In this document: positions 44,141-61,409 of the stretch, piece after piece
How the letters are laid out: every line of letters starts with the position of its first letter
How positions within the stretch are numbered: position 1 is the stretch's first letter
Source of the DNA: an uncultured Hyphomonadaceae bacterium
Lineage (GTDB): Bacteria > Pseudomonadota > Alphaproteobacteria > Caulobacterales > Maricaulaceae
NCBI GenBank assembly: GCA_913058335.1
Contig: CAJXPX010000005.1
Location: 1 to 64,000, forward strand
DNA: 64,000 nucleotides
Reading direction: 5' to 3'
The notes under the pieces: model-generated
What the model was told of the DNA's origin: nothing
The model's database searches: none
What the model saw: the letters and a program-made list of their open reading frames with translations, nothing else
Program-made: the position numbers and the translations under genes

Positions 44141-46504
44141 ATGCTTAAAAAACAAATTCTGGGATTAAAATTGCGCAACATATTGCTGGCGGCCAGCGCA
44201 CCTTTGGCCTTCGGCCAGATGGGTACATTTGCCTTCGCGCAGGACGCTGGGGCACCTGAAACGTTACCTGTCGCTGAAGCGGAGAGGTCCCGCGTATCGT
44301 TTGATGAGGTGATTGTGACGGCGCAAAAAAGAGAGGAAAGCTCGCAGTCAGTACCAATTTCGATTTCTGCCTTCTCTGGGGAAAAGTTGGAGCAAGGCCA
44401 GACTAATTCAATTACAGCTTTAGCGCAAATTACGCCAGGATTGACCTTTAATACATTTCAACCCGGTCAGCCGGAGATTTCAATCCGTGGCGTGGGCACC
44501 AAGGAAGATGGAGCTGCGGCATCAGATTCCACTTTGGTGATGGTAGACGGAATTTATGTCGCCGCCCGCTCAGCATCAAATGTCGACATATTTGACCTTG
44601 AGCGTGTGGAGGTCTTGCGGGGTCCGCAGGGAACTCTCTTCGGTAAAAATTCCATCGGTGGTGTGATTAATTACGTCACCCGCAAGCCTGATGATGAATT
44701 TAGAGTAAGGGTTCGGCAGACAGTTGGTAGTTACGATCAGTTTGACACCGCCGCGATGGTTAACATGCCGGTTACAGACAACCTGTTTGGAAAGTTCTCA
44801 TTCAGTCGCCGTGCGTTCGAGGGATATGACCGATGGATAGGGCCAGGCAATGGCGATGAAATTGGCGGCAATAATCTTTTTGCTTGGCGTGCTCAGACCC
44901 TGTGGGAGCCAACCTCGGACTTTAACTTGTTAGTGTCACTCGACGGGGCTGACGAGGAGCTTGGAAATATCAATCGTCAGCCCGTGGGTTCGGCAGGCCC
45001 GCTGCATGATTGTGGGTGTGCCTCCGACCCGATCGCGGTTGATATGGCGCTGGGGGGCGCAGATTCAGTGCGCACCTATCTAGGTGAGGACGACAATGGC
45101 GGTAACCGTGAGGTTTTTGGTGCTATGGTAGAGATGAATAAAGAGCTATCTTTTGCTACCCTCACAGCTGTCGGAGCCTATCGCGAGTCCGAGTACTTTT
45201 TCTCGCATGACGACACGGGTCTTCCCCCGTCACCTATAGTGGATTTAACAGGCTCGAATGGCAACCCGAATGACATATTTTTGGGTGACCCGACTATAGG
45301 TTTTACGTTCGATAATAGCGACTTAGTTTGGGAGGATGCTACACAGTTTACAGGAGAACTGCGTCTTACTTCAAATACAGCAAGTGATTTGGAATGGGTC
45401 GTTGGGGTTTTTGGTAGTTCAGAGGAGATCGATCGAACTGAGGGAATTTTATTTACGGCGATAGCGGACGCTTCGCTTGATCCTAATTATGCGACCGCTA
45501 CCATGTTGTACGAAGGTTGGTCGGCTGCGGCATTCGCTCAGGCAACATATGCTCTGACGGACAGATTAAGCATTACAGCTGGGGGAAGATTCTCTTACGA
45601 AGAAAAAGAAGTTATCGCGTTTAACGAAATACCTGCCTCTCCTTCGTTACAGTTAGTTCTTTCTGCTTTTCCGCCAACTTTAGGGAAGGATGAATGGGAT
45701 AACTTTTCTTGGAAGGCCGCGTTAGATTACCAAATTGCGAATGATGTTCTTGTTTACGGCACAGTGTCGACAGGGTTTAAGAGTGGAGGGTTCACAGGAA
45801 CTGCCACCACAGCAGTAGGGGCTACCACACCATTTATGCCTGAGAAGGCAACTAACTACGAGGTTGGCATGAAGGGCGATTTCTTCTATAATCGTTTGCG
45901 CGCAAACTTGTCTGGATTTTATACGGATTACAAAGATCTTCAGGTCACTCGTTTCTTCCAACCGCCCTCATCCGGGGCTGGAGAATTTATTACCGAAAAC
46001 GCGGCTAATGCGGAGATTCTAGGGTTTGAAGGTGAGTTTACCGCGCTTCTAACTGATAATCTCGAAGTTGGCGGGTTTTACTCCTATCTTGATGCAACGT
46101 TTGAGAATTTTTTCGGCACGCCGGATATTTCAGGTACTGGCGACTTTACTGGAAACGTACTGCGTCAAGCGCCGGAGCATTCCGCCGGAGCTCACGTTGA
46201 ATATGTCAAGGATCTCAATGGCAATCGCGGCAGTCTGACTGCAAACATAAACGTAAAACATCAAAGCCAGACCTTTACGAATGTCGATAATAATCCAATT
46301 GATATAATTCCGGAGCACACTGTCAGCGATGCATGGTTGGCTTGGAATTCTGACAGCGATAAGTGGATGGTTCAGGGGTGGGTCCGAAATTTGACCGATG
46401 AAGTGTACCGCACGCATGTGTTTACCCAACGCGGAAATAGAATTGGTTTCGGAACCTACGCGCCCCCGCGCACATACGGTATTACGTTGCAATATAGCTA
46501 CTAA
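44141..46504 (+). CDS. TonB-dependent outer-membrane receptor
   Basis: A TonB-dependent receptor of 787 residues. It has a signal peptide ending in FAFAQ, a TonB box FDEVIVTAQKRE (about residue 54), a plug with VEVLRGPQGTLFGKNSIGG, and a beta-barrel that ends in ITLQYSY with the terminal aromatic. It is the first gene of the meta-cleavage cluster, 41 bp before catechol 2,3-dioxygenase, so an aromatic or terpenoid-like growth substrate is likely. It is not a recent copy of the receptor at 4813; similarity is limited to family motifs. Confidence 0.95.
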   Translation: MLKKQILGLKLRNILLAASAPLAFGQMGTFAFAQDAGAPETLPVAEAERSRVSFDEVIVTAQKREESSQSVPISISAFSGEKLEQGQTNSITALAQITPGLTFNTFQPGQPEISIRGVGTKEDGAAASDSTLVMVDGIYVAARSASNVDIFDLERVEVLRGPQGTLFGKNSIGGVINYVTRKPDDEFRVRVRQTVGSYDQFDTAAMVNMPVTDNLFGKFSFSRRAFEGYDRWIGPGNGDEIGGNNLFAWRAQTLWEPTSDFNLLVSLDGADEELGNINRQPVGSAGPLHDCGCASDPIAVDMALGGADSVRTYLGEDDNGGNREVFGAMVEMNKELSFATLTAVGAYRESEYFFSHDDTGLPPSPIVDLTGSNGNPNDIFLGDPTIGFTFDNSDLVWEDATQFTGELRLTSNTASDLEWVVGVFGSSEEIDRTEGILFTAIADASLDPNYATATMLYEGWSAAAFAQATYALTDRLSITAGGRFSYEEKEVIAFNEIPASPSLQLVLSAFPPTLGKDEWDNFSWKAALDYQIANDVLVYGTVSTGFKSGGFTGTATTAVGATTPFMPEKATNYEVGMKGDFFYNRLRANLSGFYTDYKDLQVTRFFQPPSSGAGEFITENAANAEILGFEGEFTALLTDNLEVGGFYSYLDATFENFFGTPDISGTGDFTGNVLRQAPEHSAGAHVEYVKDLNGNRGSLTANINVKHQSQTFTNVDNNPIDIIPEHTVSDAWLAWNSDSDKWMVQGWVRNLTDEVYRTHVFTQRGNRIGFGTYAPPRTYGITLQYSY

Positions 46505-46544
46505 TGCAAATCTGAAATCCGTTGATCGCACGAGGAGAATTAAA

Positions 46545-47462
46545 ATGCTAACTACCGTTCTACGTCTTGGTTTTGTCCAGTTACGTGTCCTAGACCTGTC
46601 TGCGGCTCTTGTTCACTATAGGGATCATATGGGGCTAGATCTTGTTAATGTTGAGGGTGGGAGAGCTTACCTGAAAGCCTATGATGAATTTGACCGTCAC
46701 AGTGTAGTCCTACGGGAGGCTGATACTGTAGGAATTGATATTATGGCCTTCAAGCTCGTCTCGGATCAAGCTGTTCGTGACATGATTCCAGAACTTGAGA
46801 AGCGCGGAGTTACCTTCGAATTTATTGAGAAAGGTGAGCAGCCGGGTGTAGGAGAGCGTTTGCGTGTGCACATGCCTACCGGGCACCAATTCGACTTCTA
46901 TTCGGAAATGGCTTTGTCGGATGATGGCCCGATGGTCAAAAATCCAGAGTTGTGGAGAAATGAGCCCAAAGGTATGCGTATCGTCAGATATGATCACTGT
47001 GCTTTGCTCGGAGATGAAATTGATGCTTCAGCTGAGATACTCATTGGGATTCTCGGCTTCAGTATTGCGGAGCGGGTGCTGGACCCAGAAGGGAATAATA
47101 TTGCATTGTTTCTCTCGTGCTCAAATAAGGCTCACGATGTTGCCTTTTTGAAGGCTCCGGTGAAGGGCAAGCTTCATCACGCTTCATTTTTAGTGGAATC
47201 ATGGTCTGATATAGGCCACGCAGCCAACTTAATGGCTCGCCGTGATATCAAAATTGATATCGGCCCAACGAGGCACGGTATAACGCGCGGCCAAACGATC
47301 TATTTTTTCGATCCGTCTGGAAACCGAAATGAAACATTTGCAGGCGGTTACCATTTTTATCCGGATAATCCGACAAGAGTGTGGACTATAGATAATTTCG
47401 GTAAAGGCTTATTTTATTATGAGCAAGAAGTCGTAGAGAGTTTTGTCGGTGTCTACACTTAG
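46545..47462 (+). CDS. xylE: Catechol 2,3-dioxygenase (extradiol, VOC fold)
   Basis: A two-domain vicinal-oxygen-chelate dioxygenase of 305 residues that opens catechols next to the diol. Iron ligands are visible as His151 (RYDHCALL), His211/212 (KLHHASFLVES) and Glu263 (GNRNETFAGG), in the positions of Pseudomonas XylE. The start is the ATG at 46545 with GAGGAG at 46532-46537; a longer open frame upstream overlaps the receptor gene and is not used. Products would enter the XylG or hydrolytic branch; only the dehydrogenase branch is present. Confidence 0.93.
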   Translation: MLTTVLRLGFVQLRVLDLSAALVHYRDHMGLDLVNVEGGRAYLKAYDEFDRHSVVLREADTVGIDIMAFKLVSDQAVRDMIPELEKRGVTFEFIEKGEQPGVGERLRVHMPTGHQFDFYSEMALSDDGPMVKNPELWRNEPKGMRIVRYDHCALLGDEIDASAEILIGILGFSIAERVLDPEGNNIALFLSCSNKAHDVAFLKAPVKGKLHHASFLVESWSDIGHAANLMARRDIKIDIGPTRHGITRGQTIYFFDPSGNRNETFAGGYHFYPDNPTRVWTIDNFGKGLFYYEQEVVESFVGVYT

Positions 47463-47536: not shown

Positions 47537-47869
47537 ATGGCGTTTAAAAGAGTTTGCAGGAGTCTGGATCTAGCTGAAGGCGGGATTATTCGATTTGTAC
47601 CGCCAGAGGGACGCGCTATAGTGGTTTGTCGATCAGAGGGCGAGATATTTGCTATGACAGATAAATGTTCGCATGGTAACTGGAGTTTATCTGAAGGGTT
47701 TTTGGAAAATTGTCATCTTGAATGTGTTCTGCATGGATCTGCGTTCGATCTTAGGACCGGATGGCCCGACAAGCTACCCGCAACTAAACCTTTAGAAATA
47801 TATGATATAAAAATCGATGATGGAGATGTATTTGTGGATATCGATTCGGGTTATATCGCAAAGAAGTGA
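47537..47869 (+). CDS. Rieske-type ferredoxin of a ring-hydroxylating dioxygenase
   Basis: A 110-residue Rieske ferredoxin that shuttles electrons from a reductase to the dioxygenase terminal component. Cluster ligands are Cys44-x-His46 (DKCSHGNW) and Cys63-x2-His66 (ECVLHG). The size and compact LHGSAFDLRTG segment match BphF/NahAb-type ferredoxins. Its partner is probably the alpha/beta dioxygenase at 50272-52108. No matching ferredoxin reductase lies in this cluster. Confidence 0.93.
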   Translation: MAFKRVCRSLDLAEGGIIRFVPPEGRAIVVCRSEGEIFAMTDKCSHGNWSLSEGFLENCHLECVLHGSAFDLRTGWPDKLPATKPLEIYDIKIDDGDVFVDIDSGYIAKK

Positions 47870-47967: not shown

Positions 47968-48282
47968 ATGAAAATGAAGTTTATCGTCGAGATTGTTGAA
48001 GCAGGAAGTACATCAACATGTAGTAAGGGCGAAAGTGTTTTAGCGTCAATGGTACGAAGCAATATAAAACGAATTCCGTCTGGTTGTCACGGCGGTGGTT
48101 GCGGAGTTTGCAAGATCAGAATTTTGGCGGGCCAGTATGAGACAGGTAAGATGAACCGTAACGTACTTACAATTGAAGAAGAGCGCGAAGGTTTTTCGCT
48201 TGCGTGTAAAACCTTCGCAGAAGAGGATCTCGAAATAACTGTCGTCGGACACATGAAGAAGTTTTACGGAAATAATCTTTAA
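47968..48282 (+). CDS. xylT: Plant-type 2Fe-2S ferredoxin, XylT-like
   Basis: A 104-residue ferredoxin with Cys40-x4-Cys45-x2-Cys48 (GCHGGGCGVCKI) and Cys80 (SLACKTF). The CHGGGCGVCK motif is that of XylT/DmpQ, small ferredoxins that re-reduce the active-site iron of catechol 2,3-dioxygenase inactivated by substituted catechols. Its presence three genes from the dioxygenase suggests that alkyl- or otherwise substituted catechols are handled. ATG 47968, with a second ATG two codons on. Confidence 0.9.
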   Translation: MKMKFIVEIVEAGSTSTCSKGESVLASMVRSNIKRIPSGCHGGGCGVCKIRILAGQYETGKMNRNVLTIEEEREGFSLACKTFAEEDLEITVVGHMKKFYGNNL

Positions 48283-48461: not shown

Positions 48462-50111
48462 TCACCCAGCAACCGCACCTGCGATTTTTCGCAGTTCAAA
48501 TTTTTGAATCTTCCCTGTTGATGTTTTTGGAAGTTGCATGAAAGTCACTCGCGTCGGGCACTTAAAGTGAGCGAGGCGCGCACGGCAAAACGTGATAATT
48601 TCGTCAGAATTAATTTGCTTGCCATCGATTACTTCGATGAAGGCCTGTGGCGTTTCCCCCCATTTTTCATGTGGGGCCGCAACAACGGCGGCGGCGACCA
48701 CTGCGGGATGGCTGTTGAGAACCCCCTCGACCTCAATGCTTGATATATTCTCACCGCCGGAGATTATTATATCCTTGGATCGATCACGAATTTCAATGTA
48801 GCCGTCAGCATGCACAACGGCTAAATCACCGCTGTGAAAATAGCCGCCTGAGAAGGCTTTTTTAGTCGCCTCTAGGTCGTTCAGATATTCAGACATTACT
48901 ATGTTTCCTCGAAACATAACTTCACCCATCGTTTCGCCATCGCTTGGTACTGGGCGCATCGTTTCAGGATCCATCACGACGACTGCGCCAACCACCGGAT
49001 AGCCAATGCCTTGGCGAGCCTTTAGCTCAGCTTTTTTCTCTAGGGGTAGATCGTCCCATTCAGGTCGCCATGCACAAACAGTGCAAGGGCCATAAACTTC
49101 CGTCAGGCCATATGTGTGGGTAATATCGAATCCTGCTTCCTCTGCCTGTTGGAGAACGGCCGCTGGAGGGGCTGCACCCGCCGTCATTACGGAGATAATT
49201 CGTGTGCGCTTTTTCGAGGAAGATATTGCGGCCTCAACTAACATTCTAACAACGATTGGAGCGCCACATAAATGGGTAACTTCGTGGATATCTACTAAGT
49301 CTAAGAAAGCTGCCGGGTCTACACCTCGGACGCAGACATGGGTGCCGCCCTGGAGAGCAATGGTCCATGGAAAGCACCAGCCATTGCAGTGAAATAAGGG
49401 TAGTGACCATAAATAGACAGGATAGTGAGGCATTTGCCAAGAAAGCGCGTTGCCGATAGCATTAAGATAGGCGCCGCGATGGTGCAATATTACCCCCTTT
49501 GGCTTGCCTGTAGTTCCTGATGTATAATTCAGCGCAATAGGGCCGCGTTCGTCTATAGGAGGTAGGTGAAACGCACCTTCACAATCATCGCCACTCAAAA
49601 AATCCTCATATGTGCGGGCGGAACTTGAAGGTGAGGTTTCACCACAAGTTTCGACTATCTCGATCATGACAATTTCGCGCTGAGAGATACTTATTGCTTC
49701 TGCCGCGATCGCTGTATAGCGCTGGTCAACTAAGAAAACTTTCGTGTCGGCATGATCGAGAATATAGGCGACGGCTTCAGCGTCTAGGCGGGTATTTATC
49801 GCGTTGATTACGCCACCCACCATTGGAATCCCAAAGCACGCTTCGATTGCCGCTGGAATGTTGTCTGCGATAATTGAGACTGTTTCTCCTGGATTTAGCC
49901 CAGCGCCATGTAGTGCACGGGCTAGCTGCCGGCAGCGATGACCAAAGTGTCGCCAAGTGCAACTGTAGGTGCCGTAAATAACAGCTGTAAGGTCGGCAAA
50001 TACGCGCTCAGCTCGCTGAAGAAAGCTTAACGGAGTAAGCGCTGCAAAGTTTGGAGCCTCCAAGGTGAAATCGTTGGGTGCTAGCTTGGCCTCATGTTTG
50101 TCTTTCGTCAT
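48462..50111 (-). CDS. AMP-dependent acyl-CoA synthetase
   Basis: An ANL-superfamily acid:CoA ligase of about 549 residues. P-loop-like adenylation motif LNYTSGTTGKPKGVILHHRG, LTEVYGPC, the hinge region SGDLAVVHADGYIEIRDRSK and the catalytic Lys in PKTSTGKIQKFELR are complete. The stretch SLPLFHCNGWCFPW is seen in plant-type AAE and DmdB-like enzymes acting on short, branched or aryl acids. The ATG at 50111 is used; a TTG three codons upstream is possible. It is divergent from the ring dioxygenase across a KstR2-type operator. Confidence 0.92.
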   Translation of the reverse strand: MTKDKHEAKLAPNDFTLEAPNFAALTPLSFLQRAERVFADLTAVIYGTYSCTWRHFGHRCRQLARALHGAGLNPGETVSIIADNIPAAIEACFGIPMVGGVINAINTRLDAEAVAYILDHADTKVFLVDQRYTAIAAEAISISQREIVMIEIVETCGETSPSSSARTYEDFLSGDDCEGAFHLPPIDERGPIALNYTSGTTGKPKGVILHHRGAYLNAIGNALSWQMPHYPVYLWSLPLFHCNGWCFPWTIALQGGTHVCVRGVDPAAFLDLVDIHEVTHLCGAPIVVRMLVEAAISSSKKRTRIISVMTAGAAPPAAVLQQAEEAGFDITHTYGLTEVYGPCTVCAWRPEWDDLPLEKKAELKARQGIGYPVVGAVVVMDPETMRPVPSDGETMGEVMFRGNIVMSEYLNDLEATKKAFSGGYFHSGDLAVVHADGYIEIRDRSKDIIISGGENISSIEVEGVLNSHPAVVAAAVVAAPHEKWGETPQAFIEVIDGKQINSDEIITFCRARLAHFKCPTRVTFMQLPKTSTGKIQKFELRKIAGAVAG

Positions 50112-50191
50112 TACACTCAACTTTCTTTATAACGCGACACCCACAAAATTACTTGCGGCTTGACAGCATAATAGGTCTGGTCTATTAAATA

Positions 50192-50205
50192 AACAAGCGC
50201 TTGGT
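50192..50205. promoter_or_regulatory. KstR2-type operator in the divergent promoter
   Basis: AACAAGCGCTTGGT fits the KstR2 consensus AnCAAGnnCTTGnT at every defined position. It sits midway between the divergent acyl-CoA synthetase (start 50111) and ring dioxygenase (start 50272) genes. The TetR protein at 43196 is the obvious candidate to bind it. Confidence 0.7.
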
Positions 50206-50235
50206 TAGATTTATGAGCGTTATAGAATAAGCTCT

Positions 50236-50254
50236 ATTGCCAGCGGCAATTTTT
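50236..50254 (+). terminator. Leader hairpin ATTGCC-AGC-GGCAAT-TTTT
   Basis: A perfect 6-bp stem (50236-50241 and 50245-50250) with a three-base loop and TTTT, just ahead of the dioxygenase ribosome-binding site AAGGAGG (50258-50264). It has the form of a short attenuator, but could equally be chance or an operator. Confidence 0.4.
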
Positions 50255-50271
50255 ACCAAGGAGGCGAAAGC

Positions 50272-51537
50272 ATGACCGAGCATAGTAGCGAAGCTGAGGG
50301 ATTTGACTACAACGATTTGATCAGCAATGAGCGGGTGCATTCGACTCTGTATACGGACGAACGAGTCTTTGAAGACGAGATGGACAGGATATACCGGAAA
50401 GGGTGGGTGTTCGTTTGTCATGACTCAGAGGTGCCTAATGCTGGAGATTTCGTTCGGCGCAATATAGGGCGAGAGCCTGTGTTTGCGATTCGCTCGCGTG
50501 ACGGCGAGATTTCTGTTATTGTTAACCGCTGCGCGCATCGCGGAAACATTATCTGTCAAGAGGATAAGGGTACTGCGAGGGCGCTTGTGTGTCAGTACCA
50601 TGGCTGGGCATACGATACCAAGGGGGCTTTAGTGGATGTTCCTTATCCTGGCGGATTTAAGGGGGATTTCTCATGTCATGGTCTTCAGCGATTGGCAAAG
50701 GTGGATGCTTATCAAGGGTTCGTTTTTGCGACCTTCAATGAGGATGCTCCACCATTGTTGGAGCATCTTGGCCGCGCTACTGAATTAATTGATAGGGCTG
50801 TCGAAATGTCGCCTGTTGGTCGAATACGGCTATCGGGTGGCTGGGTTAAGCACCAATTTAACTGCAACTGGAAAATGCTACCGGAGAACGATACGGATGG
50901 GTATCACGTTAATTTTGTGCATCCGTCGTTCGCGCAGGCCATTCGGTCTAACTATGATGATGCTGTGTTGCATGATGAGGAAACTCTTAAGTCTCAATCT
51001 AAGGATTGGGGTGGTGGTCATACGGAGTTGTTCTTTTCTCCGACCTATTCAAAGCCGCTGGAGTGGTTTGGGTGTTCTGAGGATCGGCATTCCAGCTACC
51101 AAGAGGCCATGATTAAGGCTTACGGGAAAAAAAAGGGCGCGGGCATTCTGGTTGATGGGCCGCCTCATGCGGTCATTTTTCCAAACTTGTTTTTGGGAGA
51201 GATGAATATCGTCCGCTTTGAGCCTGTGGCTTCCGGTGTGTGTCTGCATACGCATACGCCTATGTACCTTGAGGGCGTTGATGACGATGTCAATAAGCGG
51301 ATTTTGCGCCAGTCCGAGGGGGCGCTTGGTCCTTCGGCGTTCTTGTTGGCGGATGATTGCGTCATCGCGGAGCGAGCTCAAGCTGCGTTAACGGGTGAGG
51401 GGGGCTGGCTCGACTTGAGTCGAGGGGCCGAACGAGAAGAGGTCGATGATCGTGGTGTTATTACCAGTCATGTGACGGATGAAACGCCTAACCGCGGTTT
51501 TTGGCGCCGCTACAAAGAGGTGATGGCGCCGAGTTAG
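50272..51537 (+). CDS. Aromatic ring-hydroxylating dioxygenase, alpha subunit
   Basis: The catalytic subunit of a multicomponent Rieske dioxygenase, 421 residues. Rieske ligands Cys87-x-His89 (NRCAHRGN) and Cys107-x2-His110 (VCQYHGWAY); the iron triad is Asp209-x2-His212-x4-His217 (DGYHVNFVH), with the usual bridging carboxylate region ENDTD. It would cis-dihydroxylate an aromatic ring. It belongs with the beta subunit 82 bp downstream and the Rieske ferredoxin at 47537. The benzoate/anthranilate/cumate branch is the likeliest, but no cis-diol dehydrogenase is adjacent, which may mean the diol re-aromatises by losing CO2 or another group. Confidence 0.94.
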   Translation: MTEHSSEAEGFDYNDLISNERVHSTLYTDERVFEDEMDRIYRKGWVFVCHDSEVPNAGDFVRRNIGREPVFAIRSRDGEISVIVNRCAHRGNIICQEDKGTARALVCQYHGWAYDTKGALVDVPYPGGFKGDFSCHGLQRLAKVDAYQGFVFATFNEDAPPLLEHLGRATELIDRAVEMSPVGRIRLSGGWVKHQFNCNWKMLPENDTDGYHVNFVHPSFAQAIRSNYDDAVLHDEETLKSQSKDWGGGHTELFFSPTYSKPLEWFGCSEDRHSSYQEAMIKAYGKKKGAGILVDGPPHAVIFPNLFLGEMNIVRFEPVASGVCLHTHTPMYLEGVDDDVNKRILRQSEGALGPSAFLLADDCVIAERAQAALTGEGGWLDLSRGAEREEVDDRGVITSHVTDETPNRGFWRRYKEVMAPS

Positions 51538-51619
51538 ATGATGCGCAACTAGAGTTAATGGGGATTTGGCTATGGAGGCCAAATGCTGAGATAAAATTAC
51601 TTTATAATAAGGCTATAGA

Positions 51620-52108
51620 ATGGTGTTACCGGAAGAACGTGCCGAGATAGAGGCTTTCCTTTTTAAGGAGGCCCGGCTCGCTGATGAATCTCAATACTCA
51701 GAATGGGAAGGTTTGGTTGCTGATGACATGCACTATTGGGTGCCCTCATTCGAGGGGCAGGATCGCGAATCGGAACAAGTATCTATACTAAACGACAATC
51801 GCACGAGGCTCGCTACTCGGATTCGGCAATTAAACACCGGGGTTCGACATGCGCAGCTCCCTCCGTCACGGATGCGAAGGGTGATTTCGAATATTGAAAT
51901 CAAAGCTCTCGAGAATGACGAATACGTCGTTGGATCTAATGTAGTGATTTATGAGTACCGTCGGCAAGCAAAGGATGAGCTAGAAGTCTGGCCCGCCAGA
52001 GTAGAGCATATGCTGAGGCGGGTTAATGGCGAGATAAAGATGTTTAGCAAAAGTATTTTTCTACTGGGTTCGGAGGGGCCGGTGCGCGGTCTCTCGTTCC
52101 TCATCTAG
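51620..52108 (+). CDS. Aromatic ring-hydroxylating dioxygenase, beta subunit
   Basis: The structural small subunit, 162 residues, of the SnoaL/NTF2-like fold. It has the family pattern EAFLFKEARLADESQYSEWE, DDMHYWVP, and a C-terminal SKSIFLLGSEGPVRGLSFLI. It follows the alpha subunit and precedes the thiolase-like gene by 15 bp, so all are in one transcript. Confidence 0.9.
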   Translation: MVLPEERAEIEAFLFKEARLADESQYSEWEGLVADDMHYWVPSFEGQDRESEQVSILNDNRTRLATRIRQLNTGVRHAQLPPSRMRRVISNIEIKALENDEYVVGSNVVIYEYRRQAKDELEVWPARVEHMLRRVNGEIKMFSKSIFLLGSEGPVRGLSFLI

Positions 52109-52123
52109 CTGGATGATGTAAGA

Positions 52124-53308
52124 GTGACCACTATTGAGAAGCGTCGAAGTAAAGTCGCCATAATCGGTTTGGGTGCGAGTGAGTTCTCCCGCAGTGGAGG
52201 GACATCTGCTCGGGCGCTCGCGGCAGAGGGCTGCGTAAACGCCATTTCTGATGCTGGAATGACTAAGAAAGATATTGACGGACTGTTACTGAATAGGAGT
52301 CCGTTGGAACCGCATGAGACATTGCCTCTTGAGCTAAGGCGGGACATGGGACTTGGGGATTTATCTTTACTCGCGTCAATTGAGGGCGAGGGTAGTTCTG
52401 CTCTACAAATGATTCAATACGCTTCATATGCTGTTAGCTCGGGTGCCGCAAAGGCGGTGTTATGTGTGTTTGCAGATGCGCCCGTCGGTGACAGTGGCGC
52501 CGGGGATTCTTATGCGGTCTCTCTCGGATTGACTGGGCTTGAGGGGTGGGATGAACGTCAAGGTTTGATTGGTGCAGTAGGAGGTTTCGCTCTTTCTGCT
52601 CAACGGTATTTCCATTTATATGGGGGAGGTCCGGACGCCTTGTATTCTGCCGCAGCGTCGGATCGCAGCTGGGCCCAAAAAAATCCGGATGCGTTTCTGC
52701 GCAAACCTCTGACCAAGGAGGAGTATCTCGCCTCGCGTTGGATAGTAGAGCCGCTACGGCTTTTTGACTGCGCCTACCCTGTAAACGGAGCTGTTGCTGT
52801 GGTTGTCACTAGTGCCAGTCACGCGGAGGAGTGGGAAGGTACACCTACGTATATTCATGGTTTTGGACAAGGGCACGGTGGATCGCCGAATTTTTCTGGC
52901 TACGAACCAGAGGTGAAAACAGGTGCGGAGGTGGCTGCTCGGAATTTGTATGCAGCTACGGGGCTTTCACCGCAGAATTTTGATTTTTGCGAGTTCTACA
53001 ACGCTTTCAGTATAACGACGCTTCTTGCTCTTGAGGGATATGGGTTTTGCGGTGCAGGGGAGGCTGTAGACTTCATTTCTGATGGTGCAACTGCTCCGGG
53101 TGGAGCATTGCCAACAAATACGGGCGGAGGGCATTTATCGTCATATTATTTGCAGGGTATGACGCCAATTCATGAGGGCGTCGTACAAATTCGCGGAGAA
53201 GGAGGGGATAGGCAGCTGGCAGTTTCAGATATCGGTCTGGTTACAGGCTTCGGTGGACGCATGGACTTTCATGCAGCCATGGCAATTAGTCAGCATAGGG
53301 AGCTTTGA
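52124..53308 (+). CDS. Thiolase-like protein without the nucleophilic cysteine (Ltp2-like)
   Basis: A thiolase-superfamily protein of 394 residues, of the SCP-x/lipid-transfer group. The place of the first catalytic Cys reads SIEGEGSSALQMI, with no cysteine, and the C-terminal Cys motif of true thiolases is GFGGRMDFHAAMAI. Such Cys-less proteins paired with a DUF35 partner include Ltp2, a retro-aldolase that cleaves acyl-CoA side chains of steroids. The DUF35 gene follows at once. Start is GTG at 52124. It may cleave a beta-hydroxyacyl-CoA side chain from an aromatic or alicyclic ring, but this is inference. Confidence 0.85.
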   Translation: MTTIEKRRSKVAIIGLGASEFSRSGGTSARALAAEGCVNAISDAGMTKKDIDGLLLNRSPLEPHETLPLELRRDMGLGDLSLLASIEGEGSSALQMIQYASYAVSSGAAKAVLCVFADAPVGDSGAGDSYAVSLGLTGLEGWDERQGLIGAVGGFALSAQRYFHLYGGGPDALYSAAASDRSWAQKNPDAFLRKPLTKEEYLASRWIVEPLRLFDCAYPVNGAVAVVVTSASHAEEWEGTPTYIHGFGQGHGGSPNFSGYEPEVKTGAEVAARNLYAATGLSPQNFDFCEFYNAFSITTLLALEGYGFCGAGEAVDFISDGATAPGGALPTNTGGGHLSSYYLQGMTPIHEGVVQIRGEGGDRQLAVSDIGLVTGFGGRMDFHAAMAISQHREL

Positions 53309-53313
53309 GCGAG

Positions 53314-53703
53314 ATGCCTGAGAGAGAATCTATATCGTCATACGCAGACTCCATAGCCGATGAAGTGCTCTTGAGGCTGGAGAAGGGTGAATTGACCTGC
53401 CCCGATTGTAGCAACGGGTGCGGAGTTGCGGATTATGCATCTCGTATTTGTCCAATTTGTTCAGGCCCTCTTGCGCCGCGCCCCGTTTCCGGCAAAGGGC
53501 ATATCCACTCGTTCGCTGTGTATCATATGCAATACGGGCCTGAATATTCAGTCCCGCATACTGTGTTGTTTGTTGAGCTTGAGGAGGGGTGCCGCTTGGC
53601 AGCTGTGTTGTCGGGCCGAGAAGAATCAGAACCTCGCGTTGGGGATGAAGTGCGTTTTTGTGGAGCGATCAGCGGGAAAGTCCAGTTTTCACTTATAAAC
53701 TAA
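53314..53703 (+). CDS. DUF35 Zn-ribbon/OB-fold protein, thiolase partner
   Basis: A protein of 129 residues with an N-terminal zinc ribbon (CPDC ... CPIC, about residues 29-54) and a C-terminal OB fold (GKGHIHSFAVYH to GDEVRFCGAISG). DUF35 proteins form complexes with thiolase-like enzymes and bind the CoA part of the substrate. The ATG at 53314 is used; a TTG at 53305 overlapping the upstream stop is the alternative. Its adjacency to a Cys-less thiolase strongly suggests a heteromeric Ltp2-type complex. Confidence 0.9.
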   Translation: MPERESISSYADSIADEVLLRLEKGELTCPDCSNGCGVADYASRICPICSGPLAPRPVSGKGHIHSFAVYHMQYGPEYSVPHTVLFVELEEGCRLAAVLSGREESEPRVGDEVRFCGAISGKVQFSLIN

Positions 53704-53722
53704 AAGATGGGAGGATATAAAG

Positions 53723-55381
53723 ATGACGACATTAGAAAATTCAAATCCACATAGTGCTGAGAAGAGTTTGGCTGGAAACGAATTGTTTCCACCGTCAGGC
53801 CTTGAAATTTTACCTCGCGATTTAGTGCGCCGGACTGGGCTGAACAACCCTAACAAAGTTGCTTATATCTGCGGTGATCGGAGTAAGACATGGGGCGAAA
53901 TGCACGTGAATTCCGAACGTATGGCTTTAGCTTTGCAGAATGAGGGCTTCGCTACGGGTGACGCGATTGGAATAATGGCTCCTGAGTGTATTGAAGTTTA
54001 TGAGCATTTTTTCGCATGTATGAAGATCGGTTTAATTCGCGTCGGGATTAACAGGCGTTATGTTGACGCTGAGCTTCGACATGTTTTTCGCGACGCAGGC
54101 CTCAGAGGATTGCTAGTTCATGCTTCGTGCGAAAACCTCTTGAGCAATGTGCGCGAGGATTTGCGCGACTTGGGTATTGTAACAATTGGGTTTGGCGGTG
54201 ATCATAACTACGACCTTGATATTGATATCCTCATGGCAAAACATGATACTGCATTGCACTATCCGCCTTTGTCCTTAAGTGCCCCGCTGATGTATAGTTA
54301 TACGTCTGGAACAACGGGCGTCCCGAAGGGGGCGGTGTTGAACCATGGTGGTGTTGCGGCGACTATTCTCCATGCTGTGGCCGAATTTGGGTTTACCCGT
54401 GACGACAGTTTTTTACTGCCTACCGGAAATGCATGGGTGGCTGTAATTCTGGCTCTCCTAGGACTTGCGAATGGAATGACACATGTGATCGCGGATGGCG
54501 ATTATGACCGAGCTACTTTTTTTGACACAGTGGCTGAGAAAAATGTTTCCGTATTTTTGTTAGCCCCTACGATGTTGAATTGGGCGTTAGAGGATAACCG
54601 CAAGACTCCCTTCGACCTGTCTTCAGTCCGGCTAATTATTTACGGGTCTTCGCCAGCCTCTCCGACATTAATACAAAACGTGTCTGAAACTTTCGGAAAA
54701 GACATGGTAAATGTTTATGCGCTAACTGAAACAACTTGGGGCGGGGTGACGTTTTTGTCGTCTGCCGATCACCAAAAAGCTCTGACCACCGATAATAATC
54801 TGCTTTCCTCCGTAGGTCGTGTCGCCTCACACTTCGAAATATCGATACGCGATGAATCGGGAAAGCCGGTTGCAATAGGCGATCCTGGAGAAATATGGCT
54901 CCGTGGTCCTACAATTATGTCGCATTACCTGAATTTGCCAGAGCAGAATCAAGAAACACTTCGTGATGGATGGTTACGAACAAACGATATCGGGAAGCTC
55001 GATGATGATGGCTACCTGTTTTTGTTAGATCGCCAAAAGTTCATGATTGTCTCTGGTGGGGTGAACGTATACCCGGCGGCAGTTGAAGCTGTTATGTCGA
55101 GGCATCCTGGAGTTGCCGATATTTGCGTGATTGGTGTTCCACACCCGGACTGGGGCGAAGCTGTCATTGCGCTCGTGCGAGCAAGTGATGAGTACAAGGA
55201 GCTTTCAAGCGATGACTTGATAGAGTTCTGCCGTGATAAACTAAACCGTATATCGACGCCAAAACATATTATTTTCGTCACTGATGATTTTCCGCGCACC
55301 ACTAATTTTAAGGTTCGCAAGAAAGAAGTCCGCGACTTTGTATTGAAAAAAGGTCTCCCTTGGGAAACATCTCAAAAGTGA
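53723..55381 (+). CDS. AMP-dependent acyl-CoA synthetase
   Basis: A second ANL-family acid:CoA ligase, 552 residues. It has YSYTSGTTGVPKGAVLNHGG, YALTETTWGGV, WLRTNDIGKLDDDGYLFLLD and, at the catalytic lysine position, FPRTTNFKVRKKEVRD. The typical PxxxxGK motif is altered to TTNFKVRKKE, so the lysine is kept but the glycine is lost. It resembles long-chain or cyclohexane/aryl carboxylate ligases. With the other ligase at 48462 it means that two different acids or two stages of one pathway are activated. Confidence 0.92.
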   Translation: MTTLENSNPHSAEKSLAGNELFPPSGLEILPRDLVRRTGLNNPNKVAYICGDRSKTWGEMHVNSERMALALQNEGFATGDAIGIMAPECIEVYEHFFACMKIGLIRVGINRRYVDAELRHVFRDAGLRGLLVHASCENLLSNVREDLRDLGIVTIGFGGDHNYDLDIDILMAKHDTALHYPPLSLSAPLMYSYTSGTTGVPKGAVLNHGGVAATILHAVAEFGFTRDDSFLLPTGNAWVAVILALLGLANGMTHVIADGDYDRATFFDTVAEKNVSVFLLAPTMLNWALEDNRKTPFDLSSVRLIIYGSSPASPTLIQNVSETFGKDMVNVYALTETTWGGVTFLSSADHQKALTTDNNLLSSVGRVASHFEISIRDESGKPVAIGDPGEIWLRGPTIMSHYLNLPEQNQETLRDGWLRTNDIGKLDDDGYLFLLDRQKFMIVSGGVNVYPAAVEAVMSRHPGVADICVIGVPHPDWGEAVIALVRASDEYKELSSDDLIEFCRDKLNRISTPKHIIFVTDDFPRTTNFKVRKKEVRDFVLKKGLPWETSQK

Positions 55382-55915: not shown

Positions 55916-56356
55916 ATGCCAACAGGGATAATAAATTTGAAAACTCTCACTGATGAAGCAACGGGAATCATTATTTCGTCAGTTTTGAAAAAGGCCAACG
56001 ATCTTGAAAGACAAGTTTGTATAAGCGTCTACGGGTCGCAAGGTGCTGAACTCGCATACTTTAAAATGACTAAATCACCGGAACTATGCTCTCAAATTGC
56101 ACGTGATAAAGCTTATTCATCGGCCTGTTTCGGCGTTGCTACAACTGACTGGCAGGAAATTTTGAAAAATGAAGATAAGCGTGTTTTGTCTGGCTTATCG
56201 CAAGTTAAGAGATTCATGGCCTTCGGCGGTGGAATCCCAATTTTACATGATGGTGAGTTGATTGGTGGCGTAGGCGTTTCTGGCGCTAGTGAAAATGAAG
56301 ATGTGATGTGCGCGCAAGCGGGGGTTGATGCGTTTGCCCAGCTAACGAAAAACTAA
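55916..56356 (+). CDS. GlcG/HbpS family protein
   Basis: A 146-residue protein of the GlcG/HbpS-like family (PF03928 type), with the mid-region KAYSSACFGVATTDW and the C-terminal FGGGIPILHDGELIGGVGVSG that define it. Some family members bind haem; the actual role in catabolic operons is unclear. AGGGATAGG lies just before the ATG. It is the first gene of the lower meta-cleavage operon, 30 bp ahead of xylG. Confidence 0.88.
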   Translation: MPTGIINLKTLTDEATGIIISSVLKKANDLERQVCISVYGSQGAELAYFKMTKSPELCSQIARDKAYSSACFGVATTDWQEILKNEDKRVLSGLSQVKRFMAFGGGIPILHDGELIGGVGVSGASENEDVMCAQAGVDAFAQLTKN

Positions 56357-56386: not shown

Positions 56387-57850
56387 ATGGCTCAAAACGT
56401 ATTACAGTTTATCGACGGTGAATACACAAAGGGCGCAAGCGGCGCCACGTTTGAAAATATCTCACCTGTCGATGGGTCTTTAATTTCGATCGTCCATGAG
56501 GCCAAAAAGGATGAAGTTGATCGGGCCGTGTCCTCAGCGAAGGCTGCGTTGCGGGGGCCATGGGCGAGTATGAGTATATCAGAACGAAATTCTATCCTGC
56601 ATAAAATAGCGGATGGTATAAACGCTCGCTTTGATGAATTTTTAAAAGCGGAATGTGCCGATACTGGAAAGCCTTACTCAGTCGCATCTCATATTGATAT
56701 CCCCCGCGGTGCTGCAAATTTTAAAGTCTTCGCAGACCTTGTTAAAAATGTTCCTGATGAAACTTTCCATATGGAAACGCCTGATGGCGCTGGCGCATTA
56801 AATTACGGCCAACGCTCTCCTAAAGGCGTGATCGCAGTCATATCGCCTTGGAATCTGCCATTGCTCCTGATGACTTGGAAGGTTGGCCCCGCGCTCGCTT
56901 GCGGTAATACCGTCGTTGTAAAGCCCTCCGAAGAAACGCCGACAACCACTGCGTTGTTGGGACAGGTGATGAATGATGCCGGTTTACCAAAGGGTGTATT
57001 CAACGTCGTTCAAGGCTTTGGACCAGATAGTGCAGGCGCGTATTTGGCAGAGCATCCTGACGTCAATGCAATCACATTTACCGGCGAAACACGTACTGGC
57101 GAAATTATTATGAAGGCGGCAGCCGTTGGCCTACGGAATATTTCTATGGAATGCGGCGGTAAAAACTCGGCGATTGTTTTTGACGACGCCGATGTAAACA
57201 AAGCCGTAGCCGGTACTATGCGCTCTGCATTTGTAAATTGCGGCCAGGTTTGTTTAGGAACAGAGCGCGTTTACGTGCACAAAAATATTTTCAATGAGTT
57301 TGCGGAGAAACTTGCTAAAGGCGCGCGGGACCTTGTTGTTGGCCCACCTGACGGCGAAAATGTCAATATGGGGCCGTTGATCTCGCACGAACATCGCGAC
57401 AAGGTATTGTCTTATTATAATAAAGCGGTCGAGCAAGGATCTGAAGTCTTATTGGGGGGCGGCGTTCCTGATATGCCAACGAAATACGCTAAAGGTGCTT
57501 GGATCGAGCCAACAATTTGGCTTGGGTCTAAAGATGATAGTGCTGTCGTTCGAGAGGAAATTTTTGGTCCATGTTGTAGTCTCTTGCCGTTCGAAGATGA
57601 GGACGAGGTATTGGCTCGAGCCAATGATACTAAATACGGCCTAGCCGGTTCGATCTGGACCGAGAATACGTCTCGAGCGCACCGTACAGCTCAAAAACTT
57701 GATGCGGGCTTGGTCTGGGTTAACTCATGGTTCTTACGGGATTTGAGAACGGCGTTCGGTGGCGCAAAACATAGTGGAATTGGCCGCGAGGGCGGTGTCC
57801 ATGGGCTTGAGTTTTATACAGAACTCAAAAACATTTGTATAAAGCTATAG
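56387..57850 (+). CDS. xylG: 2-hydroxymuconic semialdehyde dehydrogenase
   Basis: An aldehyde dehydrogenase of 487 residues, specifically of the XylG/DmpC/NahI type: ECGGKNSAIVFDDAD in place of the usual ELGGK, and nucleophile Cys in VNCGQVCLGTERVYV. It oxidises the product of catechol 2,3-dioxygenase with NAD to 2-hydroxymuconate, the 4-oxalocrotonate branch. It starts the series xylG-xylJ-xylQ-xylK-xylI with minimal spacing. Confidence 0.93.
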   Translation: MAQNVLQFIDGEYTKGASGATFENISPVDGSLISIVHEAKKDEVDRAVSSAKAALRGPWASMSISERNSILHKIADGINARFDEFLKAECADTGKPYSVASHIDIPRGAANFKVFADLVKNVPDETFHMETPDGAGALNYGQRSPKGVIAVISPWNLPLLLMTWKVGPALACGNTVVVKPSEETPTTTALLGQVMNDAGLPKGVFNVVQGFGPDSAGAYLAEHPDVNAITFTGETRTGEIIMKAAAVGLRNISMECGGKNSAIVFDDADVNKAVAGTMRSAFVNCGQVCLGTERVYVHKNIFNEFAEKLAKGARDLVVGPPDGENVNMGPLISHEHRDKVLSYYNKAVEQGSEVLLGGGVPDMPTKYAKGAWIEPTIWLGSKDDSAVVREEIFGPCCSLLPFEDEDEVLARANDTKYGLAGSIWTENTSRAHRTAQKLDAGLVWVNSWFLRDLRTAFGGAKHSGIGREGGVHGLEFYTELKNICIKL

Positions 57851-57857
57851 GTGAAAC

Positions 57858-58634
57858 ATGACCAATACTCCTGAGAAATGGGCAAGTAAACTTTTTGATG
57901 CTCTGCGAAATGGTGCCTCAATTGATCCGCTCACCGATCATTGGTCGGGAATGACCATTGATGATGCGTATGAAGTTTCTCTCGCACTCTTAAAGCGCCG
58001 CGAAGCAAGTGGTGAGATGATAATAGGTAAGAAAATTGGCGTCACATCGGAAGCGGTTATGTCGATGCTGGATGTCGATCAACCCGATTTTGGGTTTCTG
58101 ACGGATACAATGTTTGCAAAAGATAATGTCGTTGACGTCTCAAATATGATTTTACCTAGGGCAGAGGCCGAAATCGCTTTTCGTTTGAAAAAAGATCTCA
58201 ATGGGCCCGGTATCACTGAAATGGATGTTCTGAATGCGACGGAAAGCGTTATCGCTTGTTTTGAAATCGTGGATAGCCGCATCAAAGATTGGAAAATCAA
58301 AATTCAAGATACGGTCGCAGATAATGCGTCTTGTGGAGTTTATGTACTAGGCGGATTAGAGGCCGACCCTAAGGACGTAGACTTGCTTGGCTGCAAGGCG
58401 GTTGTAACCAAAAACGGGGAATTTTTAAGCGAAGGTGTCGGTGCGGCCACACTTGGTTCGCCCTTAAAAGCAGTCGCCTGGTTGGCCAATACTTTGGGTG
58501 AGCGCGGGATACCATTTAGAGCAGGTGAAGTAATTTTGTCGGGTTCACTTGTGCCGCTTGAAAGTGTTGCCGCAGGTGATGAAATGCGAGTTGAAATTGA
58601 GGGTCTTGGTGATTGCCAAGTCTCCTTTAAGTGA
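57858..58634 (+). CDS. xylJ: 2-oxopent-4-enoate hydratase
   Basis: A fumarylacetoacetase-fold hydratase of 258 residues that turns 2-hydroxypenta-2,4-dienoate into 4-hydroxy-2-oxovalerate. It matches XylJ/Dmp[30 protein letters not shown], the metal-site glutamates in PRAEAEIAF and [20 protein letters not shown], and [13 protein letters not shown]. It is related to XylI at 60639, with which it usually works together in the same complex. Confidence 0.92.
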
Positions 58635-58642
58635 GGAATAAA

Positions 58643-59584
58643 ATGAGTAAAAAAGTAAAAGCTGCGATCATAGGGTCTGGTAATATCGGCACAGACCTGA
58701 TGATCAAAATTGCAGAAAGTTCTGACGTATTGGAAGTGGGGTGCGTCATTGGTATTGATAAAAAATCCGAAGGTCTTGCCATGGCGCGAAAGCGCGGCTT
58801 TGCGACGTCGCACGAGGGCGTTGAGGGCGCACAAAGGTTGGATGTCTGGAAAGATATTAGGATTGTCTTTGATGCAACCTCAGCCTACGCCCACGCCAAA
58901 CATGCAGCGATATGCGAGGCTGAGGGTAAGCAAATGATTGACCTGACACCCGCTGCGATCGGCCCCTATTGTGTGCCTGTTGTCAATATGGATGCACATT
59001 TGGACGCACCGAACGTGAATATGGTGACTTGTGGTGGGCAGGCAACCATACCGATGGTCTATGCTGTGACGCGTGTGTCCCAATCAGTGCCTTATGCAGA
59101 AATTGTGGCGTCTGTCTCTTCGCGCTCTGCAGGACCTGGGACCAGAGCCAACATTGATGAGTTCACTAGAACAACGGCACAGGGTATTGAGAGAGTTGGC
59201 GGTGCGCAAAAGGGCAAAGCGATTATAATCCTAAATCCAGCGGAGCCTCCTATGTTGATGCGCGATACAGTTTACGCCCTGTCCGTTGGCGGTAAGGAAG
59301 AGGATATAAGGAAATCGGTCGCGGATATGGTCGCCGATGTGCAAGCCTATGTTCCGGGATACCGCTTAAAGCAAGATGTGCAATTCGAGCGGTTTACAGG
59401 GAATAACAAACTTCACATTCCAGGACTTGGAACCTATGAGGGCACCAAGGTGACGATTTTTCTCGAAGTTGAAGGGGCAGGGCATTACCTTCCGAAATAT
59501 GCGGGGAATTTAGATATTATGACCTCGGCGGGAATGGGAACGGCTGAAGCGATTGCTCGTAGAAGGTTTGGAGCAGCGGCATGA
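58643..59584 (+). CDS. xylQ: Acetaldehyde dehydrogenase (acylating)
   Basis: A CoA-acylating acetaldehyde dehydrogenase of 313 residues (MhpF/DmpF/XylQ type), converting acetaldehyde, NAD and CoA to acetyl-CoA. It has the Rossmann motif [13 protein letters not shown], the nucleophile Cys in [12 protein letters not shown] and [20 protein letters not shown] at 58643 with GAGGA just before; a GTG at 58631 overlapping the xylJ stop is less likely. It forms a channel complex with the aldolase whose start overlaps its stop (ATGA). Confidence 0.95.
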
Positions 59585-60642
59585 CCGGATCAATGTCCAA
59601 AGGTCTCGTGAAAGACCCAAAAAAGGACCGTCTGTATATTCAAGACGTAACGCTGCGCGACGGTATGCATGCTATTCGTCATCAATACTCAGTCGAGCAT
59701 GTGCGCGCGATTGCAAAAGCATTGGATGAGGCTGGCGTTGACGCGATTGAGATTGCGCATGGCGATGGTCTCAATGGCGGCGCATTTAACTATGGATTTG
59801 GGGCCCACACGGATTGGGAATGGATTGAGGCCGTTTGTGATGTCGTTGAAAACGCGGTTGTTACAACGCTCATTTTGCCAGGGATTGCAACCATCGATGA
59901 GTTAAAACGCGCTTATGAATTAGGTGTGCGCTCAGTACGTGTGGCCACCCATTGCACAGAAGGAGATGTCTCTCGTCAACACATCGAAATGGCGCGTGAG
60001 CTTGGCATGGATACTACGGGCTTCCTGATGATGAGTCATATGGTGGAGCCAAAACATCTCGCAAGCCAAGCTAAGCTGATGGAAGATTACGGCGCGACCT
60101 GTGTTTACGTGACAGATTCTGGTGGCGCTTTGGACATGGACGGTTATGCGGAACGTCTGAAAGCTTACAATGACGTATTGAAACCAGAAACGGATCGGGG
60201 CGTCCACGCACACCACAATCTTTCGCTAGGCGTCGCTAATTCTATCGTTGCAGTGCAGAATGGAGCGCGACGGGTTGATGCATCACTTGCGGCTATGGGA
60301 GCCGGAGCAGGTAACGCGCCGCTTGAAGTATTTATTGCCGCCGCTGATCGCAAAGGCTGGAACCACGGCTGCGATGTTTACAAGCTAATGGACGCTTCTG
60401 AAGACTTGGTTCGCCCTCTGCAAGACCGACCTGTGCGGGTAGATCGCGAAACGCTCAGCCTTGGTTACGCCGGCGTCTATTCCAGCTTTCTCCGTCACGC
60501 CGAAAAAGCAGCTGAAGATTATGGTTTGGATACACGTCAGATACTGGTCGAACTGGGTAATCGCGGTATGGTTGGCGGTCAGGAAGATATGATCGTTGAC
60601 GTGGCGTTGGACTTATTAAAAAATAAAAAGGCGTCGACATGA
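59581..60642 (+). CDS. xylK: 4-hydroxy-2-oxovalerate aldolase
   Basis: A class II pyruvate aldolase of 353 residues (MhpE/DmpG/XylK type) that splits 4-hydroxy-2-oxovalerate into pyruvate and acetaldehyde, which is tunnelled to XylQ. The metal-binding Asp lies in [14 protein letters not shown] and the two histidines in [10 protein letters not shown]; the C-terminal dimerisation part ([20 protein letters not shown]) is present. The start and stop overlap neighbours by ATGA, indicating strict translational coupling. Confidence 0.95.
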
Positions 60643-61409
60643 CTGACCTAAATGCAATTGCACAAATTGTAGATGATGCAGCCTTTAATGCGACTGCAAT
60701 CCCTCAGCTATCTGAATCTGGGTACGCTATATCTCTTCAAGAAGCCTACGAGGTTCAAAGACTATCAATAGAGCGCAGGTTCGAACGAGGCGAAAAACTT
60801 ATTGGAATTAAAATGGGTTTCACGTCTAAAGCCAAACAAGTCCAAATGGGGCTTGAAGATGAAATTTGGGGGCGTCTCACAGACAAAATGTGGATTGAAA
60901 ATGGAGCTGAAATCGATATTCAGGACTACGTCCATCCGCGCTTCGAGCCTGAATTGGCATTCCGCATCAAACACGATATCAACGGGATCATTTCCCGCGA
61001 AGAGGCCTTTGACGCATTGGACGCTGTGGCACCTGCTATTGAGATCATCGATAGCCGTTACACGAACTTCAAATTCAATCTTCCCGACGTCGTAGCCGAT
61101 AATTCGTCTTCGTCCAGCTTGGTTGTTGGCGAATGGATGGATCCGAATTTAGATTTCCGTGATCTTAAAATGGCTTTGCAAGTAAATGGTCAAACTGTTC
61201 AAGAAGGGAGTAGCCATGCAATTCTGGGTGATCCTATTCAGGCATTAATGGCCGGATCTCGATTGGCTGACACGGCTGGGATTGTCTTGAAAAAAGACTT
61301 TATTGTTATGGCGGGCGGGGCAACAGCTGCACATGCTTTATCTAAGGGGGATATGGCTCGTAATTGTGTCGAATTTATGAGTTGGCCATGTTTTTCCGTT
61401 AAGTCCTAA
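60639..61409 (+). CDS. xylI: 2-oxo-3-hexenedioate (4-oxalocrotonate) decarboxylase
   Basis: A fumarylacetoacetase-fold decarboxylase of 256 residues. It matches XylI/Dmp[21 protein letters not shown], the metal-site glutamates in [10 protein letters not shown] and [20 protein letters not shown], and [17 protein letters not shown]. It yields the dienoate that XylJ hydrates. It is the last gene of the coupled block. No 4-oxalocrotonate tautomerase gene accompanies it. Confidence 0.92.

Follow-up and report, generated by a model that had tools for sequence, protein, structure and literature searches.

The window analyzed here is a stretch of 64,000 nucleotides (positions 1 to 64,000 of contig CAJXPX010000005.1) from an uncultured Hyphomonadaceae bacterium. 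At 48462-55381 it carries a block of six genes for acid:CoA ligases, a Rieske ring dioxygenase and a thiolase homolog with a DUF35 partner, and the question is whether these genes constitute a new route for the removal of side chains from aromatic acids. A preliminary description listed two ligases, the dioxygenase, the thiolase homolog and the DUF35 protein, all of which are present among the open reading frames (ORFs) and recognized by Pfam and NCBIfam, and was unaware of a described pathway with precisely this combination. The latter claim cannot be upheld, as an ipfABDEF pathway for ibuprofen and arylacetates is in print. We conclude that the block very probably encodes the upper part of a degradation pathway of the ipfABDEF type, with arylacetic or 2-arylpropionic acids as substrates. 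The cluster is genuine and its chemistry has already been described; it is an ordinary, diverged member of the ipf group.

The operon proper is located at 50272-55381 on the plus strand and consists of five full-length, open frames, which are separated by 82, 15 and 19 bases except for one pair that overlaps by 4 bases. Their predicted products are an IpfA-like Rieske oxygenase alpha subunit (50272-51537; Pfam Rieske and Ring_hydroxyl_A), an IpfB-like oxygenase beta subunit (51620-52108; Ring_hydroxyl_B), an IpfD-like Ltp2/SCP-X thiolase homolog that is the predicted retro-aldolase (52124-53308; Thiolase_C_1), an IpfE-like DUF35/OB-fold partner (53305-53703; OB_ChsH2_C) and an IpfF-like arylacetate CoA ligase (53723-55381; AMP-binding).

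Relatives of this operon are found on plasmids. A tblastn search of 72,556 plasmid records with the thiolase-like protein gave a match in 489 of them. When places were ranked by coverage times identity, Sphingopyxis granuli RW412 pRW412a and Rhizorhabdus wittichii MPO218 pIBU218 came out on top (both 50.9% identical to the thiolase), followed by Paraburkholderia aromaticivorans BN5 (50.3%). Both pRW412a and pIBU218 are ibuprofen plasmids (PMC9195938), and PMC11347016 assigns the pIBU218 protein accessions to IpfA, B, D, E, and F. The annotated order on these two plasmids (alpha subunit, beta subunit, thiolase, OB-fold protein, AMP-binding protein) is that of the window, on one strand. Identities to the pIBU218 proteins are 58% over 418 aa for IpfA, 53% over 159 aa for IpfB, 51% over 397 aa for IpfD, 41% over 59 aa for IpfE, and 48% over 524 aa (507 bits) for IpfF. 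As a control, the window alpha subunit was compared to seven other ring-hydroxylating oxygenase (RHO) alpha subunits of the genome, with 26-37% identity over the best BLAST stretch. The alpha subunit, the ligase and the thiolase are closer to ipf genes than to their paralogs, with only the 59-residue alignment available for the DUF35 protein. A search for the same gene order thus yields colinear blocks on pIBU218, pRW412a, and BN5 plasmid pBN3, and this recurrence rules out a chance association. The same five genes also occur on plasmids of BN5, Variovorax sp. WDL1, Chelativorans sp. AA-79 and Rhodococcus erythropolis X5, and among these four the order of the window is found in BN5 alone. Nitratireductor thuwali has the Chelativorans arrangement, with a DUF35 frame that is seen by tblastn and unlisted in the annotation table.

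The remaining gene of the block, a ligase gene at 48462-50120 on the minus strand, is divergent and lies upstream of the operon. Its product falls in the NCBIfam PRK08162 subfamily (791 bits, cut-off 677) and shows 28% identity (156 bits) to IpfF, compared to 48% for the downstream ligase. A two-ligase pathway was rejected because the divergent gene encodes a PRK08162-type synthetase with so little identity to IpfF; it is a generic acyl-CoA synthetase and not an ipf gene, and of the two ligases originally combined in the pathway, the downstream one stands.

In the ibuprofen pathway, the acid is activated by a CoA ligase and oxidized to a dihydrodiol by a dioxygenase, after which a retro-aldolase releases propionyl-CoA and 4-isobutylcatechol (PMC9195938). 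A 2018 review assigns ligation to IpfF, dioxygenation to IpfABHI, and cleavage to IpfD/IpfE (PMC6063337), and the same scheme is used in PMC11347016. According to PMC9195938 and PMC6063337, these three steps have been established for ibuprofen in ipf strains by others. The substrates listed for Sphingomonas sp. strain Ibu-2 include 2-phenylpropionate, 3- and 4-tolylacetate and 2-(4-tolyl)propionate (PMC6063337). Further, ipfL encodes a catechol dioxygenase and ipfM is proposed to encode a 2-hydroxymuconic semialdehyde dehydrogenase (HMSDH) (PMC9195938).

For the window copy, homology, gene order and active-site residues suggest an equivalent sequence of reactions. The ligase (53723-55381) would convert the substrate to an aryl-CH(R)-CO-CoA thioester. 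The oxygenase (50272-52108), which a ferredoxin and probably an IpfH-like reductase would supply with electrons, would then add O2 across the substituted ring carbon and the carbon next to it, resulting in a 1,2-cis-dihydrodiol. As the C1 hydroxyl of this product is beta to the thioester, the dihydrodiol would be a beta-hydroxyacyl-CoA, and dioxygenation at the substituted carbon would thereby make a dehydrogenase or hydratase unnecessary. Indeed, a Pfam scan identified no enoyl-CoA hydratase or acyl-CoA dehydrogenase among the six proteins of the block, as had been noted before; an acyl-CoA dehydrogenase gene is located in another part of the window (16046-17194). The thiolase-like/DUF35 pair (52124-53703) is predicted to cut the bond between the ring and the alpha carbon in a retro-aldol reaction, with Tyr292 as base, Tyr342 as acid and no acyl-cysteine, to give acetyl-CoA or propionyl-CoA and a hydroxydienone that would tautomerize to a catechol. 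The catechol would be meta-cleaved and degraded by the products of 46545-47462 and 56387-61409, with a tautomerase encoded elsewhere on the contig. CoA activation, a beta-hydroxyl supplied by the dioxygenase, retro-aldol release of an acyl-CoA and meta-cleavage had all been anticipated in the preliminary description, and together they essentially equal the published scheme of the colinear ipfABDEF genes. We infer that the window copy is active, and the attached HMSDH-type lower pathway points to unsubstituted or para-substituted arylacetates as its substrates.

The catalytic residues of the thiolase-like protein agree with such a role. The protein had been called Cys-less, which is correct for the nucleophile and incorrect for the protein as a whole: it contains five cysteines (37, 114, 216, 289, and 309), none of them at the nucleophile position, and Gly90 occupies the column in which the genuine thiolases L003 and L005 of the same genome carry Cys. 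Its best sequence match in the PDB is 6ok1 chain A (E=1.4e-53), which we take to be Ltp2 of Thermomonospora curvata. Tyr292 and Tyr342 of the window protein align with positions 294 (in the YDHF motif) and 344 of this chain. In TcLtp2 the base is Tyr294 within YDHF and the acid is Tyr344, and the related aldolase CtSal has a Gly where the nucleophilic Cys would stand (PMC12329534). Across an alignment of 73 rows, which includes own_L004 and own_L006 as uninformative wrong-frame ORFs, the Gly90 column holds 65 Gly, 4 Cys (L003, L005, L018, and L042), 1 Ser and 3 gaps. IpfD-like rows agree with the window at the columns of Gly90, Tyr292 and Tyr342, and the other Ltp-like protein of the genome (L002, on contig C11) has an Arg at the Tyr342 column. 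Tyr292 and Tyr342 of the window protein may therefore fulfill the two-tyrosine roles of a retro-aldolase. The DUF35 gene overlaps the thiolase gene and its product is the likely partner in the predicted complex. Its start codon is a TTG at 53305, overlapping the thiolase stop codon, with the next ATG at 53314. The DUF35 protein has weak PDB matches to 9myr_B and 6ok1_B (the ChsH2 DUF35 protein), and its cysteines 32, 35, 49, and 52 resemble a zinc ribbon.

The phylogeny of the thiolase family places the window protein with IpfD. The tree (quick IQ-TREE, SH-aLRT support only) comprises 69 rows, taken from 76 matches of at least 250 aa after removal of L001, L031, and L082 (copies of the window gene) and L010-L013; L026 and L040 fell below the length limit and the genome's own C11 gene appears twice (L002 and L089). 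A branch with a support of 96 sets the window thiolase apart together with seven plasmid rows that are linked to a dioxygenase and include IpfD. The sister of this group is L047 from Rhodococcus qingshengii TG-1, where the thiolase gene is accompanied by genes for an OB-fold partner, a CoA transferase and a ligase (7965-12492), and no dioxygenase was identified in the 17 kb fetched. To assess dioxygenase linkage outside the group, 20 loci around non-IpfD thiolases (L090-L109, hand-picked from the genome matches) were re-fetched. Adjacent DUF35, alpha and beta genes were found at one of these (L096), and four others (L098, L104, L106, and L108) had an alpha match alone, 4.6-6.9 kb away and with no beta subunit. 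Among 21 loci from named genomes (L007-L027), a single one (L022) has an alpha/beta pair, at a distance of 7.8 kb. Five loci in this latter set, L009-L013, are from named Rhodobacterales-type genomes and carry one identical Ltp-like protein (362/362 residues), which suggests recent transfer.

The operon is flanked on both sides by genes for catechol meta-cleavage, which the preliminary description had included in the pathway; they are present, though outside 48462-55381 (46398-47462 upstream and 56387-61409 downstream). All are on the plus strand. Upstream lie the genes for catechol 2,3-dioxygenase (46545-47462 within the ORF 46398-47462; TIGR03211, 376 bits, cut-off 320, match from residue 54), a Rieske-type ferredoxin that is a candidate electron donor to the oxygenase (47537-47869; Pfam Rieske) and a 2Fe-2S ferredoxin (47968-48282; Pfam Fer2). 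Downstream, they encode HMSDH (56387-57850; TIGR03216, 824 bits, cut-off 693), a probable 2-oxopent-4-enoate hydratase (57858-58634; TIGR03220, 370 bits, under the cut-off of 409), an acetylating acetaldehyde dehydrogenase (58631-59584; TIGR03215, 449 bits, cut-off 282), a 4-hydroxy-2-oxovalerate aldolase (59581-60642; Pfam HMGL-like and DmpG_comm) and a probable 2-oxo-3-hexenedioate (4-oxalocrotonate) decarboxylase (60639-61409; best NCBIfam match TIGR03218, 185 bits, under the cut-off of 351). Catechol 2,3-dioxygenase, HMSDH, and acetaldehyde dehydrogenase thus exceed their NCBIfam cut-offs, and the hydratase and decarboxylase remain under theirs. These frames are intact, and a tautomerase gene is found on the same contig (C5:74742-74918). 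The genome (99.5% complete) also encodes a methylmalonyl-CoA mutase, so that propionyl-CoA could be used. Two other plus-strand genes are located nearby: one for an HbpS-like small protein (55916-56356; Pfam HbpS-like) and one for a TonB-dependent receptor (44141-46504; Pfam TonB_dep_Rec_b-barrel and Plug), which on the basis of its position is a possible uptake gene.

With respect to electron transfer, the ferredoxin at 47537 shows 45% identity (84 aa) to the one encoded next to the BN5 block and 30% identity (104 aa) to pIBU218 IpfI. The ferredoxin at 47968 shows 47% identity over 88 aa to a 2Fe-2S protein of pIBU218 whose gene adjoins one for 2-hydroxymuconate tautomerase; it may have an XylT/DmpQ-like role in reactivating catechol dioxygenase. 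No IpfH-type reductase was identified among the 40 window proteins scanned. Further along the contig, a reductase (L087, 8208-9458) aligns over 402 aa with IpfH of pIBU218 at 48.5% identity, and it may serve the oxygenase of the block.

Several observations weigh against an assignment to the ipf group, or limit what it implies. The best plasmid bit score of the thiolase is to BN5 (333) and not to the ibuprofen plasmids (316), and the DUF35 protein aligns weakly to IpfE. Identities of around 50% would leave the substrate undecided. In the tree, the branch that joins the window to six proteobacterial rows has a support of 87, and L046 within the group is long-branched. The motif is YNAF in the window and YDAF in IpfD, compared to YDHF in TcLtp2, where the His is of modest importance (PMC12329534). 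Tyr342 was rejected as a marker of the IpfD group, as Tyr is found in 18 of the 73 rows, 9 of which are neither in the group nor L047. The IpfH-like reductase gene lies approximately 36 kb downstream, outside the operon and nearer to other RHO genes. Finally, linkage to ring dioxygenases is not entirely exclusive to the IpfD group, since L096 lies outside the group and has the alpha/beta pair. At this locus (5441-9150), the thiolase gene (the same gene as L068) stands beside DUF35 and ring-dioxygenase alpha and beta genes; its product has a YDCF motif and a His at the Tyr342 column and is not of the two-tyrosine type. The arrangement may reflect an independent recruitment of the same idea.

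Other explanations of the block differ in how they account for these data. The same three-step chemistry could act on larger hydroaromatic or polycyclic acids, such as resin acids and steroid-derived arylacetates or those derived from polycyclic aromatic hydrocarbons (PAHs). Within approximately 55 kb, the same contig encodes a ferredoxin reductase, a BphC-like dioxygenase and a DHDPS-type aldolase in addition to five more RHO alpha subunits, so the host may handle larger aromatics, and PAH degraders such as Cycloclasticus have ipf clusters: of the ten other strains in which ipfABDEF clusters were found with Ibu-2 as query, five are Cycloclasticus (PMC6063337). However, the attached lower pathway, with catechol 2,3-dioxygenase and HMSDH over their cut-offs, suits catechol or 4-substituted catechols, and the nearest characterized relatives use monocyclic arylacetates (PMC9195938; PMC6063337). 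We therefore regard larger acids as improbable substrates; resin acids and bile-acid fragments, which had been put forward as candidates, are less likely than arylacetates, judging from the nearest relatives and from the catechol pathway attached to the block.

Considerably less probable still is a function of the thiolase-like/DUF35 pair in a steroid side-chain route or one in the style of beta-oxidation, with its position next to the dioxygenase being incidental. The closest solved structure to the thiolase is that of an Ltp2/ChsH2 pair, and 19 of the 20 re-fetched non-IpfD loci have no adjacent alpha/beta pair. Yet plasmids of alpha- and betaproteobacteria share the order alpha, beta, thiolase, DUF35, ligase, the five genes recur on further plasmids with the ligase moved, the block has neither a hydratase nor an acyl-CoA dehydrogenase, and an ipfD insertion mutant of MPO218 did not grow on ibuprofen, with polar effects also reported (PMC9195938). 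The least probable explanation, to which we give hardly any weight, is that the cluster was acquired but is silent and currently serves no function. An ipf-type copy was found in none of the 17 same-genus genomes sampled (several incomplete, some 65-91% complete), and the block may be a recent gain; against silence, its frames are open and full-length, the catalytic residues of the thiolase-like protein are conserved, and intact lower-pathway frames adjoin it. An ipf-type pathway for arylacetic or 2-arylpropionic acids is the reading that we retain.

That the host is an alphaproteobacterium agrees with its RpoB, whose first 1009 residues have PDB 7ye1 (Caulobacter) as best match, at 1703 bits compared to 1261 bits for E. 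coli. In 60 genomes of relatives (own genome included), matches outside the own genome reached at most 36% identity, apart from a 63-residue piece at 40% in G019. Across 385 genomes of the class (own included, up to four candidates scored in each), those outside the own genome were at most 39% among the matches listed. A scan of a collection of genome contigs for the thiolase with exact peptide patterns gave 21 loci with relatives at 31-39% and no further ipf-type copy. The block thus looks accessory in its lineage. PaaA/PaaC had no match in the genome, in a search with one profile that was positive in 4 of 14 control genomes, E. coli not among them; this search for a phenylacetate route covered PaaA/PaaC only, and the homogentisate route was not searched for.

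We tentatively consider, with some doubt, that the ipf-type route could be the native means by which the host mineralizes natural phenylacetate or arylacetates derived from alkylbenzenes. If so, phenylacetyl-CoA would be converted to acetyl-CoA and catechol via ipso-dioxygenation and retro-aldol cleavage, a natural alternative to the epoxide (paa) pathway, and the ibuprofen route would be a recent offshoot of a natural arylacetate pathway. Our analysis corrects the claim of novelty and assigns the block to a described pathway for the degradation of drugs and arylacetates. New are the host, an alphaproteobacterium in which PaaA/PaaC gave no match, and the position of a catechol pathway right next to the block, and a copy of approximately 50% identity beside such a pathway offers a handle on the natural role of the ipf genes.

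Other genes for aromatic metabolism are present in the region. On the same contig (C5, 63500-122000; L086-L088), these five RHO alpha subunits are encoded along with a BphC-like dioxygenase, a DHDPS-type aldolase and the IpfH-like reductase. Three of the alpha subunits that were tested scored best to the HcaE, BenA, and AndAc models, all under cut-off, and a fourth also to HcaE. These genes may constitute a polycyclic-aromatic pathway that converges on the same catechol route. Within the window, the region 7416-25022 contains genes for a LigXa-like Rieske oxygenase, an OxRdtase_C dehydrogenase, an RraA-like aldolase, a GMC oxidoreductase and an aldehyde dehydrogenase, and may represent a lignin-type protocatechuate 4,5-cleavage cluster. 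At 25766-27318, AbiEi-like and AbiEii-like genes form a possible type IV toxin-antitoxin pair. GC content at 48-54 kb (0.49-0.51) is inside the range of the window and carries little information.

When compared to known systems, the window oxygenase shares its two-subunit Rieske architecture with BenA, anthranilate, and HcaE-type dioxygenases, whereas its alpha subunit falls far short of their curated thresholds, with 195 of 781 bits for BenA and 177 of 830 for HcaE. With the Ltp2-ChsH2(DUF35) steroid aldolase (6ok1), the thiolase-like protein has in common the family, the lack of a nucleophilic Cys, the base and acid tyrosines and the DUF35 partner. To our knowledge, Ltp2-ChsH2 is not linked to a ring dioxygenase. 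In contrast to the window protein, with its YNAF motif, Ltp2-ChsH2 carries YDHF and acts on a steroid C3 side chain (PMC12329534). The block on pBN3 of BN5 has the alpha, beta, thiolase, OB-fold and ligase genes in the order of the window (59, 53, 50, 29, and 47% identity, respectively), but 1.36 kb with no listed gene separates beta and thiolase, and paaI, ferredoxin and reductase genes come after the block. Most similar are pIBU218 of MPO218 and pRW412a of RW412, which carry these five genes in an identical arrangement, four of them at 48-58% identity (pIBU218), and share the three predicted steps. The ipfABDEF genes of strain Ibu-2 represent the same known system, by description rather than by sequence. 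The present copy differs from that system in its ferredoxin, which has limited identity to IpfI, and in the IpfH-like reductase, which is encoded at a distance. Moreover, the catechol meta pathway directly adjoins the block in the window, whereas ipfL and ipfM of MPO218 are located in another region of the plasmid (PMC9195938).

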